Assembly: GCA_018812525.1 (NCBI GenBank) | Contig: JAHJDE010000168.1 | Location: 1-45,218 of the forward strand | Length of the DNA: 45,218 nt | Reading direction: 5' to 3' | Source: Gammaproteobacteria bacterium | Lineage (GTDB): Bacteria; Pseudomonadota; Gammaproteobacteria; Chromatiales; Chromatiaceae | Part shown: positions 16,297 to 44,627 of the stretch, in pieces | Layout of the letters: each line of letters begins with the position of its first letter | Position numbering within the stretch: the stretch's first letter is position 1 | The notes under the pieces: generated by a model | The model's input: the letters and a program-made list of their open reading frames with translations, nothing else | The model's database searches: none | What the model was told of the DNA's origin: nothing | Program-made: the position numbers and the translations under genes

Positions 16297-16385
16297 GAAT
16301 TACGGTGACAGTTTACTAAATACATATAATTCACAGAAAGATCATGCGGCAATTAAGTGCATTTAGTAAACTGTCACCGTAATTC
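16297..16385. repeat. 89-bp element with 25-bp perfect arms
   Basis: Arms 16297-16321 and 16361-16385 are perfect inverted copies beginning GAATTACGGTGACAG. The 39-base centre is unpaired and AT-rich. The right edge is exactly where the broken cas2 coding sequence begins, so the element probably marks the insertion or deletion that removed the 5' part of that gene. Sequences of this type accompany RAYT transposases in many gammaproteobacteria; the link here is inference. Confidence 0.8.
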
Positions 16386-16517
16386 GAACTGATATCCCAC
16401 ATCGACTTGGCCACCGACTCCCTGCGCTACTATCCCCTCTGCGCCTGGTGCGGCGAACAGCTCACCTGGCAAGGGGAAGGGCGGCGGACCGAAGACCCCG
16501 ATCTGTGGCTGATCTGA
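16386..16517 (+). pseudogene. 3' remnant of a second cas2
   Basis: The last 43 codons of a cas2-like gene, reading HIDLATDSLRYYPLC and then LTWQGEGRRTEDPDLW before the stop. They align with the end of the intact cas2 next door: HIDPVADRVRYYALC and VQWDGRGSG. The upstream part is missing and the coding begins at the edge of an 89-bp palindromic element. The stop is one base before the ATG of the intact cas2, as in a tandem, co-translated pair. The two tails differ clearly, so this was a paralogue and not a recent duplicate. Confidence 0.65.
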
Positions 16518-16518
16518 C

Positions 16519-16794
16519 ATGCTCCACGTCATCGCCTACGACATCCAGGACGACCGAGCCCGAACCCAAGTGGTCCATGTGCTGGAGGGCTACGGCCAGC
16601 GTGTGCAGGGTAGCGTCTTCGAATGCTGGCTGACCCGGACCCAGCTCGATGAGATCCAACGGCAACTGGTCGTGCACATCGACCCCGTTGCCGATCGCGT
16701 ACGCTACTACGCCTTGTGCCGCAAGGATGTGGAAAAGGTCCAATGGGATGGACGCGGCAGCGGCCCCGCCGACACCATCGCCACCATCGTCTGA
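16519..16794 (+). CDS. cas2: CRISPR-associated protein Cas2
   Basis: A 91-residue Cas2, a normal length. It has the ferredoxin-like opening MLHVIAYDIQDDRARTQVV with the conserved Asp after the first strand, then VQGSVFECWLT and DRVRYYALC. Cas2 dimers bridge Cas1 dimers during spacer acquisition. No cas1 or effector gene is in the window, and a CRISPR array starts 320 bases downstream in the same direction. Either the other cas genes lie elsewhere or the locus is relictual. The upstream neighbour is the tail of a second cas2. Confidence 0.92.
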   Translation: MLHVIAYDIQDDRARTQVVHVLEGYGQRVQGSVFECWLTRTQLDEIQRQLVVHIDPVADRVRYYALCRKDVEKVQWDGRGSGPADTIATIV

Positions 16795-17114: not shown

Positions 17115-17256
17115 CTTCCCACCGCCCCGATTTATAGAGGGGATTAAGACGATGGCGCCGAGTGCCATGCCCATGTCCCGGCGGCTTCCCACCGCCCCGA
17201 TTTATAGAGGGGATTAAGACGTTCATGGGGCACCCCCATTGAGTGCCTCGTCCCCC

Positions 17257-17383
17257 GTAACCATTCAGCCCCCTCCCCCTCTGGGGGAGGGTTGGGGAGG
17301 GGGTGGCCTAATAAATTCAGAGCGTTATCCACAACCGCCCTCCCCCCAACCCCCTCCCAGAGGGAGGGGGGGTGAACGGTAAC
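17257..17383. mobile_element. Palindromic MITE, copy 1 (127 bp)
   Basis: The termini are GTAACCATTCA and TGAACGGTAAC, with two GC-rich hairpins inside around a centre containing CCTAATAAATTCA. It sits in repeat 3 of the CRISPR array at the CGATTTAT position, but the left half of that repeat and any left duplication are gone, so a deletion or recombination followed insertion. It matches copy 2 in opposite orientation over its whole 127 bp with scattered changes. Confidence 0.85.
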
Positions 17384-17529
17384 CGATTTATAGAGGGGAT
17401 TAGGACCAGGTCGGCCGGCAAGTGCTTCCACGGAAGCTCTTCCCACCGCCCCGATTTATAGAGGGGATTAAGACTCCGCCAGCGTCCCTGTCACCTCACC
17501 GTAACCACTTCCCACCGCCCTGATTTATA

Positions 17530-17656
17530 GTATCCGTTCACCCCCCCTCCCTTTGGGAGGGGGTTGGGGGGAGGGCAATCCAAAATAATGCCTTGAATTT
17601 ATTAGGTCACCCCCTCCCTAACCCTCCCCCGCAGGGGGAGGGGACTGAACGGTTAC
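17530..17656. mobile_element. Palindromic MITE, copy 2 (127 bp)
   Basis: The termini are GTATCCGTTCA and TGAACGGTTAC. The flanks are a perfect 8-bp target duplication GATTTATA (17522-17529 and 17657-17664), which lies in the loop of CRISPR repeat 5. Removing the element plus one duplication restores a 36-bp repeat. This shows that it moved into the array. The 8-bp duplication and GTAA ends resemble IS66-family behaviour; that link is inference. Confidence 0.92.
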
Positions 17657-17732
17657 GATTTATAGAGGGGATTAAGACGCCGTCGCGCTGCCACCGGAGA
17701 TGTGCTTGACGCTTCCCACCGCCCCGATTTAC

Positions 17733-17791
17733 GTATCCGTTCACCCCCCTCCCTAACCCTCCCCCACAGGGGGAGGGGACTGAACGGTTAC
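17733..17791. mobile_element. Palindromic MITE, copy 3 (59 bp)
   Basis: It has the same termini as copy 2 (GTATCCGTTCA and TGAACGGTTAC) and the same orientation but lacks the middle 68 bp, so it is an internal deletion form. It splits CRISPR repeat 6 at the same loop; the flanks CGATTTAC (17725-17732) and CGATTTAT (17792-17799) match at 7 of 8 bases. Confidence 0.88.
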
Positions 17792-17883
17792 CGATTTATA
17801 GAGGGGATGGGGAATGGGGCCGCGCCACTGGGCAAGATGCCGCGCATTCCGGTGCATTCTTCGCGTACCGAACCGCCAGCACC

Positions 17884-17912: not shown

Positions 17913-18221
17913 ATGACCTACTACCTCGATCCCAAGAATGACCAGTCCATCGAGTACCGGGCCCCTTTAAAAAGACTACCGTTTGCGGTGAGCCCTTCGG
18001 CTTCGTCAAGAGAGCCTTGTCGAACCGCAAGTTTTCGCGCCGACACTGGCCTTCGACAAGCTCAGACCGAGCGGGTTTGTCGTTATTTTTCAAGGGGCCA
18101 TGCCTGCCTGAGTCGTTGCAAACGCTCAGGGCTTGCTCAACGGCAAGCGGGAGGTCACCGTCGTCCTGACGTTTATCCTCTTGGTTACCTGCAAGACATC
18201 ATCGATCTGGCTACTTTCTGA
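17913..18221 (+). pseudogene. Small gene broken by a repeat
   Basis: A good ribosome site (GGAGG) and ATG open MTYYLDPKNDQSIEYRA, and the frame ends with a protein-like tail PLGYLQDIIDLATF. Everything between (about 17970-18130) is intergenic-type repeat: GCGGTGAGCCCTTCGGCTTCG, then CCTTGTCGAACCGC and CTTCGACAAGCTCAGAC, also seen inverted near 34.52-34.61 kb. It looks like one gene, or two gene ends, filled by repeat. I do not recognise the original product. Confidence 0.4.
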
Positions 18222-41513: not shown

Positions 41514-42444
41514 GGCGCGGCTGACTTTCCGCCACCAGCAAGGCCAGCGCCACCAATGTGTTGTCGTTAATCAGATGTTCGACCGGCTTGGCCAGCAGTT
41601 GCTGATTCAGGCGCAGATACCACAGGAATAAAAACGAACCGCAGCGTTTGTTGCCATCCGCCAGCGGGTGATTCTTGATGATGAAATAGAGCAGATGGGC
41701 GGCCCGGCTGGCTACATTGGGGTAAAAAAGTTCATCGCCAAACCCCTGTTCGATGGTGGCGATGCTCGACGCCAGCCCCTCGCCACGCAACTGACCAAAC
41801 AGGGCGGTGGCTTCACCTTTGGCGATCAGCCTGGTTTTCAGTTGCTCGATTGCCGCCAGCACCTCCTCCAGCGCCAGTGCCCGCATCCCCGTCTGCGGTG
41901 TCGTCTGGTTGGCCAGGCTCTGCTCATCGTACTGCTGCAACAGGCTCCAGCTTCGGGCGTAGTCGGCAATCACCCCCAGCACCGCCGCCCCTTCGGCATT
42001 CACCAACTGCTGGTTCGCCAAGGTGCGGGAGAGCAGTGCCACCGCCTGTTCGAACTCGATGCCGCGCTCAGCCAGGCGCTGCTGGTTGAGGGTGTAGCCC
42101 TGTACCAGATGCTGCTTGAGGGTTCGCGTGGCCCATTGGCGGAACTGCACGCCGCGCGGGGATTTGACCCGGTAGCCGACCGAGATGATGACGTCCAGGT
42201 TGTAGTAATCCACCTGATAGGTTTTGCCATCGGTGGCAGTATGTGCAAATTTTGCACATACTGAATCGCGCTCCAGTTCACCCTCGGCAAACAGATTGCG
42301 GATGTGTTTGGTAATCACCGATCGTTCGCGCTCGAACAGTGTGCCCATCTGCTCTTGCGTCAGCCAGACGGTCTCCCCGTCCAGCCGAACATTCAGGGTC
42401 AACTGACCATCGGAGGCGATGAACATCTGGATAGCGTTGGTCAT
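40996..42444 (-). CDS. RhuM-Fic protein fused to HsdR tail
   Basis: A 482-residue frame made of two genes. Residues 1-315 are a RhuM/Fic-DOC protein: QMFIASDGQLTLNVRLDGET, VWLTQEQMGTLFERERSVI and FQ-W-type SPRGVQFRQWATRTLKQH, then a Fic motif HPLADGNKR, which matches HPFx(D/E)GNKR with Leu for Phe. Fic enzymes AMPylate or phosphorylate target proteins. From about residue 370 the frame is the C-terminus of type I enzyme HsdR: NRAIETAQVIEELIQMPKEF, LGQDEFAFYDALANNESE and VDWQVRESVRAKLRILVRR. The join lies at the start of a deleted hsdR and gives about 50 nonsense residues. The start overlaps the hsdS stop by ATGA. Confidence 0.8.
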   Translation of the reverse strand: MTNAIQMFIASDGQLTLNVRLDGETVWLTQEQMGTLFERERSVITKHIRNLFAEGELERDSVCAKFAHTATDGKTYQVDYYNLDVIISVGYRVKSPRGVQFRQWATRTLKQHLVQGYTLNQQRLAERGIEFEQAVALLSRTLANQQLVNAEGAAVLGVIADYARSWSLLQQYDEQSLANQTTPQTGMRALALEEVLAAIEQLKTRLIAKGEATALFGQLRGEGLASSIATIEQGFGDELFYPNVASRAAHLLYFIIKNHPLADGNKRCGSFLFLWYLRLNQQLLAKPVEHLINDNTLVALALLVAESQPRHDERATTRRPVHWLVSGNRLAVCARAGHCARRHISRKGRLPAGDPARPAAGNLRKYHNRAIETAQVIEELIQMPKEFQAVLKREAALGLGQDEFAFYDALANNESEVRELDDDILKKIAIEITEKLRASTTVDWQVRESVRAKLRILVRRTLQKWKYPPDQQAELLSNEWSN

Positions 42445-44627
42445 GGCGCAGGCTCCACTTCGACGGACTCAACCGACAACTCACCGGAGAGGAGTTTGGG
42501 GAGGAGGGTGTCGCGAAGAGACGCAAGTGTCTTTGCCTCCTCGTCCAAGGCTTTAATCTGATTCAGCACCGCACCTGAGAGTCGACCAAACTCGATTGAG
42601 ACCGGTTTTGTAGGTTCAACCAACTGGTAACCACCGAAGCAATCGTTCGGAACTCGCTGCCGGCCAGAGGTGCCTGCCATCTGTGCAATTGCAAAGGCTC
42701 TGAACTCAGGATGGCGACAAAGAAAGTAGGCGAATGGCTCAGGCAATCCGTTCTTGGGGCGAAGCACGATGAATTCTGTGGAACCCCAACCCACTTCGTC
42801 GCCATTTAGGAAATCCACAAATGCCGTTTTTCCGTTTTCAAGGCATGGCGTAATGCGCGCAAGCAGTGTGTCGCCATTTCGGAACTTGGAGCCGGACGAG
42901 AACTCGCGGGCCACGACATTCTGTACTCTGGCGGAATTCGTGGGCACGTTGGCCATATCCAGATACTGCGCAATGGTCCCTCTCTTGAGTAATCTGGATG
43001 GGTTCACTTCAACACATTCTGGCATTGCACGGACAATCCACCCCCTCGGAATCTTCCCCAACTCCGAAGCCGCTCCTGCGCGTCCTGCGCTCGCGGCATT
43101 GGCACTTCCCTGTGCGGCATCTTCCATCTCATCCGGGAACAGCGCGGCGGTAGCGGCTAGTTGGTCGTAGAGGCTGACACCCTCACCCCCAACCCCTCTC
43201 ACGGCGGGAGAGGGGAGATTTTTCAGGGCGTCGAGTTCGGCCTCCGTTTTGCCGCTGATGGCACACATGGCGGCGCGCAGCATGGCCTCTTCAAGCCCCT
43301 CTCCCTCCGGGAGAGGGGTTGGGGTGAGGGCATTCCACACCTGCTCTAACACGGCTTCCGTTTCCAGCAGGACTTCACGATTGGAAAAACGCATCACCGT
43401 AATGCCGCGCTGTTGGAGCATTCCCGTGCGCTCGATATCAGAAGCTATCCCTTCAGGGGTGTAATGCTGCCCTCCATCGAGTTCGATGGCCAGTCTGTGC
43501 TCGTGGCAGTAAAAGTCCAGAATGTATGGATGGCAGGGATGCTGACGGCGAAATTTTCCTCCTAACGATCGGTTGCGCAGCAATCGCCAGAGCAGTGACT
43601 CGGCATCCGTGGCGTGCGCACGGTTTTCGCGGGCAAGAGAGAGGATGTCTTCTGGGATACATGGTTTGTGCCTCGACGGAGTACCCTCACCCCCAGCCCC
43701 TCTCGCGGAGGGAGAGGGGTGCATGGTCAGCCAGCGTTGCTTGGCGGCGATCTTGGCTTTGACCGGCTCGAAATCGACAAACCACGATTTGAAGATGGCT
43801 TGCGCCATGGCTTCGAGGGTTTGGTTGATGCGGCGGTTGAGGTCGATTTTTTTGTCGAGTGAGGCAAGCACCCGAACAATGGCCTTCTGATATTCGGGAT
43901 CAGGATAACGGACTGGGATTCTGTCTAAGTTCCCTTGCGTTAACTTGGGCATCACGGCGCCAGTGAGGTACGACTGGATGTCCGCATTCAGCAAAAAATA
44001 GTTCAGATACTCGGTCGTTACCTCGCCATTTCCAGTAACGATATGAGCATGGTTGTTAACCCAAAACTTTCCATCCGCCATGAAAGCGATGGGGGTCTGC
44101 CTGGTTCGCAGATTTTCTCCGTCCTCTGCGATCAGAAGATGTTGCCCTTCAAAAATATAACCATCGACGTAGTCAACGATTCCGGATGCTCCATAGTAGG
44201 GGTATGGCCCTTTCTTACGTTCGGACTCTTTGACGGGCCTTCTTTTCCCGTCGTGGTTAACAGTGACCTCTCCGAGCGGTTTTTCAAACCATTGAACATT
44301 GGAAGTCTTACCGCCGCTTCGCACAGCTCTCTTCACCACAACCCGATCCCGCTCAACAATCTTCCTGAACGACTCACTGGTCGTCGCCCAGTCCACTACA
44401 TCCACTTTGTAGGGCAGGTCGGAATCCTCGAACGCCTCTTCCAGCAAACCCAGTGTGCGAAAGCTCAGCGGGGTGTCACCCACAATGCACAAATCGAGAT
44501 CGGAATATTCTTTGGCCAGCCATTTGGCACGGGAACCGAAGGCCCAGACTTCAGGCTCCGGGACAAACTTTTGCAGAATGTCCTGAATGATCTTCAGATG
44601 GTCGAAGCGCACATCAAGCAACGGCAT
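42441..44627 (-). CDS. hsdS: MNT-HsdS fusion with inserted DUF559 nuclease
   Basis: A 728-residue composite. Residues 1-105 form a minimal nucleotidyltransferase: FGSRAKWLAKEYSDLDLCI holds GSxAx10SDxD, with DVVD as the third acidic site. Residues 110-300 and 520-720 are the two HsdS recognition domains (YPYYGASGIVDYVDGYIFEG, MPKLTQGNLDRIPV; LGKIPRGW, GGYQLVEP, LRDTLLPKLLSGEL). Residues 322-433 form a DUF559 Vsr-like nuclease (YILDFYCHEHRLAIELDGGQ) set in the HsdS linker between inverted repeats (43296-43330 and 43684-43719). Another repeat inserts PSPAVRGVGGEG near residue 472. The stop overlaps the RhuM-Fic start, and the 5' end overlaps the HEPN-like gene by 14 bases. hsdM is not in the window. 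Fusion by loss of a stop is likely. Confidence 0.87.
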   Translation of the reverse strand: MPLLDVRFDHLKIIQDILQKFVPEPEVWAFGSRAKWLAKEYSDLDLCIVGDTPLSFRTLGLLEEAFEDSDLPYKVDVVDWATTSESFRKIVERDRVVVKRAVRSGGKTSNVQWFEKPLGEVTVNHDGKRRPVKESERKKGPYPYYGASGIVDYVDGYIFEGQHLLIAEDGENLRTRQTPIAFMADGKFWVNNHAHIVTGNGEVTTEYLNYFLLNADIQSYLTGAVMPKLTQGNLDRIPVRYPDPEYQKAIVRVLASLDKKIDLNRRINQTLEAMAQAIFKSWFVDFEPVKAKIAAKQRWLTMHPSPSARGAGGEGTPSRHKPCIPEDILSLARENRAHATDAESLLWRLLRNRSLGGKFRRQHPCHPYILDFYCHEHRLAIELDGGQHYTPEGIASDIERTGMLQQRGITVMRFSNREVLLETEAVLEQVWNALTPTPLPEGEGLEEAMLRAAMCAISGKTEAELDALKNLPSPAVRGVGGEGVSLYDQLAATAALFPDEMEDAAQGSANAASAGRAGAASELGKIPRGWIVRAMPECVEVNPSRLLKRGTIAQYLDMANVPTNSARVQNVVAREFSSGSKFRNGDTLLARITPCLENGKTAFVDFLNGDEVGWGSTEFIVLRPKNGLPEPFAYFLCRHPEFRAFAIAQMAGTSGRQRVPNDCFGGYQLVEPTKPVSIEFGRLSGAVLNQIKALDEEAKTLASLRDTLLPKLLSGELSVESVEVEPAP
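43296..43719. mobile_element. Inverted-repeat-bounded DUF559 insert
   Basis: The ends are a 35-36 bp pair in opposite sense: 43684-43719 begins CCCTCACCCCCAGCCCCTCTC, and 43296-43330 is its near-complement ending GAGAGGGGTTGGGGTGAGGG. The enclosed stretch codes for the DUF559 nuclease and is in frame through both repeats, without a stop. Removal would join the two HsdS halves (TMHP... to ...EEAMLRAAM) at a natural linker. No target duplication was verified. Confidence 0.6.

Follow-up and report, generated by a model that had tools for sequence, protein, structure and literature searches.

Three insertions of a MITE at the same position of a CRISPR repeat

A small CRISPR array of a gammaproteobacterium carries three copies of one MITE, and the insertion sites of all three fall within one base of each other in the CRISPR repeat. 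The array was analysed in a stretch of 45,218 nucleotides, here called the window. The explanation that we prefer, and to which we give about an even chance, is that an IS66-derived MITE with a loose sequence preference inserted repeatedly into an array that was no longer under selection.

The CRISPR array

The array of six CRISPR repeats lies at 17115-17808 of the window. The intact 36-bp repeat, CTTCCCACCGCCCCGATTTATAGAGGGGATTAAGAC, is present exactly in three places and, with up to 3 mismatches allowed, occurs nowhere else in the 3.5-Mb draft genome. The three remaining repeats are interrupted. Where the array is uninterrupted the repeat spacing is 68-70 bp; five distinct spacers are present and a cas2 gene is found upstream. 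The features, in the order of the window, are:

16383-16517, plus strand: second cas2-like gene, a C-terminal fragment behind a palindromic repeat
16519-16794, plus strand: cas2, intact, upstream of the array
17115-17150, plus strand: CRISPR repeat 1, intact, exact repeat match
17185-17220, plus strand: CRISPR repeat 2, intact, exact repeat match
17257-17383, minus strand: MITE copy 1, 127 bp, GTTACC subfamily
17384-17406, plus strand: CRISPR repeat 3, right half; left half absent, one substitution near the 3' end
17439-17474, plus strand: CRISPR repeat 4, intact, exact repeat match
17508-17678, plus strand: CRISPR repeat 5, split by MITE copy 2 (left part 17508-17529, right part 17657-17678)
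17530-17656, plus strand: MITE copy 2, 127 bp, GTATCC subfamily
17712-17808, plus strand: CRISPR repeat 6, split by MITE copy 3 (left part 17712-17732, right part 17792-17808)
17733-17791, plus strand: MITE copy 3, 59 bp, internal-deletion form of the GTATCC subfamily

The surroundings of the array hold few Cas components. PADLOC, applied to eight window proteins near the array, recognised Cas2 only, the other seven being no Cas protein, and cas1 genes were found on other contigs, none on the contig of the array. The cas2-like fragment is identical to the intact Cas2 at 14 of 32 residues. Repeat 6 has a degenerate 3' end, which suggests that it is the leader-distal end of the array. With a lone cas2, a broken second cas2, six repeats and a degenerate distal end, the array looks like a relic.

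Three independent insertions

Copy 2 is flanked by an exact 8-bp duplication, GATTTATA (17522-17529 and 17657-17664). Copy 3 has a 7-of-8 duplication, CGATTTAC/CGATTTAT (17725-17732 and 17792-17799), in a register one base over from that of copy 2. An earlier reading of the letters alone (the sequence-only reading) had described both duplications correctly. The right junction of copy 1, TGAACGGTAAC followed by CGATTTATAG, is in the same register within the repeat, that of copy 3, and abuts the right half of repeat 3. On its left side are 36 nt of spacer-like DNA ending in CCCCC, with neither a left repeat half nor a left duplication. The simplest account of the missing half would be a deletion starting at the element end. 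The claim that one element splits three repeats therefore stands for copies 2 and 3; copy 1 abuts a right half only.

The sizes of the elements (127, 127 and 59 bp) and their common termini were confirmed, with one change in the inner end of copy 1. Copies 1 and 2 had been taken for the same element in inverted position. Their orientations are indeed opposite, but they belong to two subfamilies and differ at 19 of 127 positions. The nearest relative of copy 1, at C56:3603, differs from it at 2 of 127 positions, and that of copy 2, at C48:5553, at 1 position. At the position of a private change in copy 2, copy 3 has the base of the family (CAC vs CGC), and it retains the element half that is lost from the 60-bp forms.

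Fewer than three events would be needed if one insertion had been copied between repeats, through recombination or because spacer acquisition duplicated a repeat that contained it. Homologous repeats do adjoin one another here, and copies 2 and 3 have subfamily and orientation in common; however, these two copies differ in register and duplication, and copy 3 has neither the private base of copy 2 nor the deletion of the 60-bp forms. For copy 1, of the other subfamily and in the opposite orientation, copying is already disfavoured. We regard it as improbable overall, and the three insertions are best read as independent, differing by subfamily, orientation or register, as had been proposed. 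A draft-assembly artefact, in which near-identical MITE copies were stitched together at the array, appears highly improbable. The draft consists of 215 contigs, some of which end near MITE copies (C176, C110, C9), but copies 2 and 3 have their own duplications between matching repeat halves, which random joins would not produce. If three insertions were placed uniformly at random in an array of this kind, the probability of all lying within 1 bp of one repeat position would be 9e-4.

The repeat is predicted to fold into a 4-bp stem, CCCC/GGGG, with a 10-nt loop. This predicted fold bears out the earlier placement of the insertion sites in the loop between the C and G runs. In the predicted folds of the interrupted repeats a long element hairpin replaces the short loop, and at copies 2 and 3 the repeat halves would still pair around the base of the element hairpin. 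It is plausible that the crRNAs of the split units would be lost.

The MITE family and its IS66 source

The end motif of the element, GTAWCCRTTCA, occurs 78 times in the genome whereas a reversed control pattern gave 0 occurrences. Searching the genome with the element gave at least 54 aligned pieces at E <= 10 (40 of 127 candidates scored). Fifty insertions of 46-274 bp were catalogued from the fetched loci, each required to have an 8-bp duplication with at most one mismatch, other element matches being left out; 47 of the duplications are exact. A fresh sample of 681 kb gave eight more insertions with 8-bp duplications, six of them exact. With terminal inverted repeats, many copies and a short length that could not accommodate a transposase gene, the element is a MITE. 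Its target duplication has a fixed length of 8 bp, a property for which the catalogue was selected and which copy 1 lacks. Mobility, claimed from the array alone, is thus seen in a multicopy family with 8-bp target duplications. The 127-bp forms have a G-rich palindromic interior. The insertions are mildly clustered: 7 pairs less than 1 kb apart were counted among 51 insertions (copy 1 being added here to the duplication-selected catalogue) against 0.73 expected, and four of these pairs lie outside the array.

Among 188 genomes of the bacterial family, 25, the own genome included, have a match to the 127-bp element at 1e-5, mostly in short G-rich pieces, and a full-length match was found in the own genome only. 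The sister genome G053 holds a related MITE with an 8-bp duplication (L115).

The relative G059 contains a 1533-bp element with the ends GTAACTATTCAG and an 8-bp duplication, GGAGGAAC. Its single 491-aa frame matches PF03050 DDE_Tnp_IS66 (E = 3.4e-52), and its 12-bp ends occur in part of the MITE family. Among the 29 IS66 loci examined, three further ones (L183, L185 and L186) have similar ends on either side of the gene, at a distance of about 1.5 kb from each other; those of L186 are flanked by a 7-of-8 duplication and those of L183 and L185 by none. Five other IS66 loci have ends starting GTAA and 8-bp duplications. Judged by the ends that it shares with the G059 element, the MITE is IS66-derived. 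It has these 12-bp ends, in part of the family, and the 8-bp duplications in common with single-ORF insertion sequences (ISs) of the IS66 family, and differs from them in its length of 46-274 bp, without room for a transposase, and in having no source element in the host draft. We take the single-ORF subgroup of the source elements to be the ISBst12-like one.

A search of the host draft for an IS66-type transposase with such ends found none, while the G059 element was recovered as the positive control. The sister species G053 has a broken homologue of the G059 transposase. The source transposase may have been lost from the draft assembly. The IS66 copy of the own genome (C178) was considered as a source and is not supported as one, the fetched stretch being without the MITE end motif.

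Some copies of the family lie in or at other repeated structures. One, L020:1497-1622 (C5:12438-12563), occupies an arm of an inverted repeat (GCGTCGAGCAAGAATAACTT...) that lies upstream of an RT-Cas1 gene. Two others, L042 and L059, share their insertion point, a boundary of a further repeated palindrome (AGGTTCTTGCAAAAC...), and their target duplications both end in AAG on the side of the palindrome boundary. This boundary is a possible second recurrent insertion site.

Hairpins at the insertion sites

The shared position in the repeat loop had led to the proposal that the transposase prefers hairpin loops or the repeat sequence itself. Hairpins were examined at 50 reconstructed empty sites, including those of copies 2 and 3, by scoring the best hairpin centred close to the 8-bp duplication; controls were taken from the same loci, at distances of 60-340 bp. 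The mean stem score was 9.34 at the sites and 10.38 in the local controls (one-sided p = 0.985, 50 sites), and only 2 of the 50 empty sites reached the control 95th percentile. Folding was also weaker at the sites, with a predicted MFE of -4.62 vs -5.79 (50 sites). Dyad symmetry centred on the target was not raised (0.267 vs 0.257, p = 0.33, 48 sites). The empty sites are no more hairpin-like than their surroundings, and the first part of the proposal is not supported. Insertions are not concentrated in hairpins or palindromes as they are for a REP- or palindrome-targeting element, and hairpin-loop targeting as a general rule found no support, there being no enrichment over the 50 sites.

Targeting of hairpins or cruciforms could still be imagined for the array, with a transposase that recognises the extruded repeat hairpin and inserts into its loop, like the REP-aiming ISs. 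All three right junctions are within the predicted repeat loop. Elsewhere, L007 and L086 are in hairpins of other MITEs and reach the control 95th percentile, and L026 sits in the AT-rich loop of another MITE, but copies in the hairpins of other MITEs are not above the expected number. The differences in stem score and MFE run the wrong way, dyad symmetry gives no support, and the other CRISPR repeats of the genome (62, see below) were not hit though their consensus repeats also fold. We consider such targeting quite improbable.

Sequence preference at the insertion sites

The target sites are AT-rich. At the 48 non-CRISPR sites this applies to the six inner target bases (0.597 vs 0.426 in local controls, p = 3e-7) and to the 12 flanking bases (0.557 vs 0.426, p = 6e-8). 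Relative to the 8-bp duplication, C at -3/G at +10 (C-3/G+10) was raised as well (p = 4e-4), a feature that was selected once the training sites had been seen. The 26 sites of the subfamily type of the CRISPR copies have a raised core AT (0.538 vs 0.437, p = 0.018) and a raised C-3/G+10 (p = 1e-4); flank AT is not raised in them (p = 0.18). The eight fresh insertions, whose ends are without exception those of the other subfamily, again have AT-rich cores (0.646 vs 0.405, p = 0.003), and C-3/G+10 was not repeated on them (0.50 vs 0.57).

Array positions were ranked by models of these features. In the 26-site subfamily models, trained without the CRISPR sites, GATTTATA ranked 1st (core), 3rd (core and flank), 5th (all three features) and 1st (core and C/G) of 136 array positions, and it was at the 99.1-99.9th percentile of the window. 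CGATTTAT, which represents the register of copies 1 and 3, ranked 5th, 15th, 25th and 11th of 136 in the same models. The core AT plus C/G model put GATTTATA joint first and CGATTTAT seventh among array positions. In the 48-site model with core and flank AT, GATTTATA dropped to 50th and CGATTTAT was 55th of 136, because the array is GC-rich around the loop; with C/G added to the flank-AT model GATTTATA was 14th. A 20-column PWM placed GATTTATA 34th and CGATTTAT 67th of 160. The PWM ranks and the 48-site flank-AT ranks argue against a simple sequence account. The second part of the proposal, a preference for the repeat sequence itself, is thus favoured by the subfamily models and not borne out by the general flank-AT model.

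A single insertion in the array would hit the observed registers with a probability of 0.032 if uniform, 0.124 with core AT and 0.229 with core AT and C/G (56 sites). For three insertions sharing any repeat position the corresponding values are 9e-4, 0.0099 and 0.076. By these models, sequence preference would account for part of the coincidence of position, and perhaps for most of it.

Other CRISPR arrays of the genome

Three other arrays, with 62 repeats, adjoin the three cas1 genes of the genome:

C186: array of 27 repeats beside a Cas1 whose best match is an I-C model
C5: array of 17 repeats beside a reverse transcriptase-Cas1 fusion
C189: array of 18 repeats beside a second reverse transcriptase-Cas1 fusion

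No further array was found in the fetched loci searched or in the 681-kb sample. None of the 62 repeats of these three arrays contains a MITE copy. The loop of the C5 repeat, CCCTGATATAGAAGGG, resembles that of the interrupted array, and the C5 array offers 17 such AT-rich loops, with a score of 2.16 vs 2.52 in the 26-site model; none was hit. Thus neither CRISPR repeats generally nor a similar loop is sufficient for insertion, and a preference of the element for CRISPR repeats as such is not supported. A count of insertions in CRISPR repeats versus elsewhere, which had been suggested as a check, put 48 of the 50 catalogued insertions outside the repeat. The 3' end GATTAAGAC is common to the repeat of the interrupted array and to the repeats of the two RT-Cas1 loci. 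The interrupted array may still act in trans with these two loci.

The contrast between 3 of 6 repeats hit here and 0 of 62 elsewhere (hypergeometric p about 4e-4) could reflect a specific attraction to this repeat, in which a longer motif or a bound protein (Cas1-Cas2, Cas6 or another) would draw the transposase. The relic state of the array, however, explains the contrast with arrays adjoining cas1 genes, and the contig of the array has no detected cas1. A residual p of about 0.01 after the core-AT correction, and the failure of the general flank-AT model to predict the CRISPR site, are in keeping with an attraction. So is the motif GATTT, found on one strand of 4 of 56 other target duplications, among them L026 (GATTTTTT) and L299 (CGATTTTT); the 48 other catalogued insertions, on the other hand, are at diverse sequences. 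We judge a specific attraction to be unlikely.

The two reverse transcriptase-Cas1 fusions (L157:3794-5839 and L158:4765-6987) are different from each other, and each is beside its own array. Near the fusion on C189, L158:7-3432 encodes a 1141-aa protein with two RAMP stretches that matches Csm3, Cas7 III-D and a gRAMP model (24-663, E 1e-39). These matches make it a candidate fused multi-Cas7 effector of type III.

Proposed explanation

In the explanation that we prefer, a loose sequence preference acting on a relic array, an IS66-type transposase would act in trans on the MITE copies and make the 8-bp target duplications. Its choice of target would be loose and read from double-stranded DNA, favouring an AT-rich core and perhaps also C-3/G+10. 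Within the GC-rich array, GATTTATA in the repeat loops would score near the top for the subfamily of the copies, which would lead to repeated insertion there. Relaxed selection on the relic would mean that the insertions were not purged. Sequence preference would then be the cause of the shared insertion position, and tolerance together with a repeatedly offered acceptable target is the best account of the insertions in the array.

Several results stand against the sequence-preference part of this explanation. First, the core-AT model still gives a probability of about 0.01 for three insertions sharing a position. Second, the flanks of the CRISPR site are GC-rich whereas flanks over the 48 sites are AT-rich. 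Third, CGATTTAT ranks only 5th-25th in the subfamily models. In addition, C-3/G+10 was chosen post hoc and was unrepeated on the fresh sites, and 17 similar C5 loops are without an insertion. The explanation as a whole is weakened by a host draft in which no IS66-type transposase with these ends was found. A bolder version, in which the transposase has a true affinity for this class of CRISPR repeat and the MITE erodes arrays after cas decay, is decidedly unlikely. The basis of such an affinity would be either the AT-rich loop motif flanked by the C and G runs or a protein that binds at this place.

Comparison with known systems

In Haloquadratum walsbyi HBSQ001 the MITE HqIRS37 is described in a residual CRISPR, where it lies in a spacer (PMC3119063). 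It is likewise a MITE inside a small CRISPR remnant; the account given there is of one copy, in a spacer of a cas-less archaeal strain, whereas here three copies occupy one repeat position. IS1397, ISKpn1, IS621, ISPpu9 and ISPpu10 are reported as specific for REPs (PMC1525189). These ISs are alike in their recurrent insertion into a repeated palindrome and are the nearest analogue of the hairpin idea. Unlike them as reported, the MITE has 48 of 50 insertions outside the repeat and no measured palindrome preference. Insertions of ISs and MITEs into cas genes are known and have been tied to plasmid gain (PMC10359306); there too mobile elements disrupt CRISPR-Cas. Here, by contrast with the cases given in that source, array repeats rather than cas genes are hit, and no sign of selection for loss is seen. 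According to a review of the Sulfolobales, CRISPR loci are very rarely hit by transposition; the review cites one IS and one MITE of 132 bp from euryarchaeal CRISPR loci (PMC4390879).

Repeated insertion at one CRISPR repeat position was not reported in the open-access literature searched, a result with little meaning beyond that literature. The element is a further IS66-derived MITE, and its triple hit, though unusual, does not yet need a new mechanism. Three independent insertions at one position indicate how an array can be taken apart by a multicopy MITE whose preference is loose. With six adjacent presentations of one target, the locus also serves as a natural test of site preference. It calls for caution as well: a shared site in a palindromic repeat is not the same as hairpin targeting unless genome-wide controls are at hand.

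Relatives and neighbouring sequence

The repeat was found in 0 of 193 other genomes of the bacterial family, the sister genome G053 included (24-base pattern, up to 2 mismatches), and a named genome collection had no exact 22-base match, so that no relative offered an empty site for comparison. A scan for close relatives with the SHMT gene turned up more distant ones, with at best 85% protein identity among the best 80 of 591 matches. In G053 the two array flanks match on different contigs, and the stretches read there contain no array.

Homology to G053 (window 17913-18221) starts only near 18137, in the gene just upstream of a glycosyltransferase, which suggests a putative rearrangement breakpoint adjoining the array. 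Between the tRNA cluster and the cas2 fragment is a perfect 25-bp inverted repeat at 16297-16385 (arms 16297-16321 and 16361-16385), in a stretch with many short matches in G053. Farther along, at window 42441-44627, a 728-aa frame combines a nucleotidyltransferase domain, a type I restriction specificity domain and DUF559.
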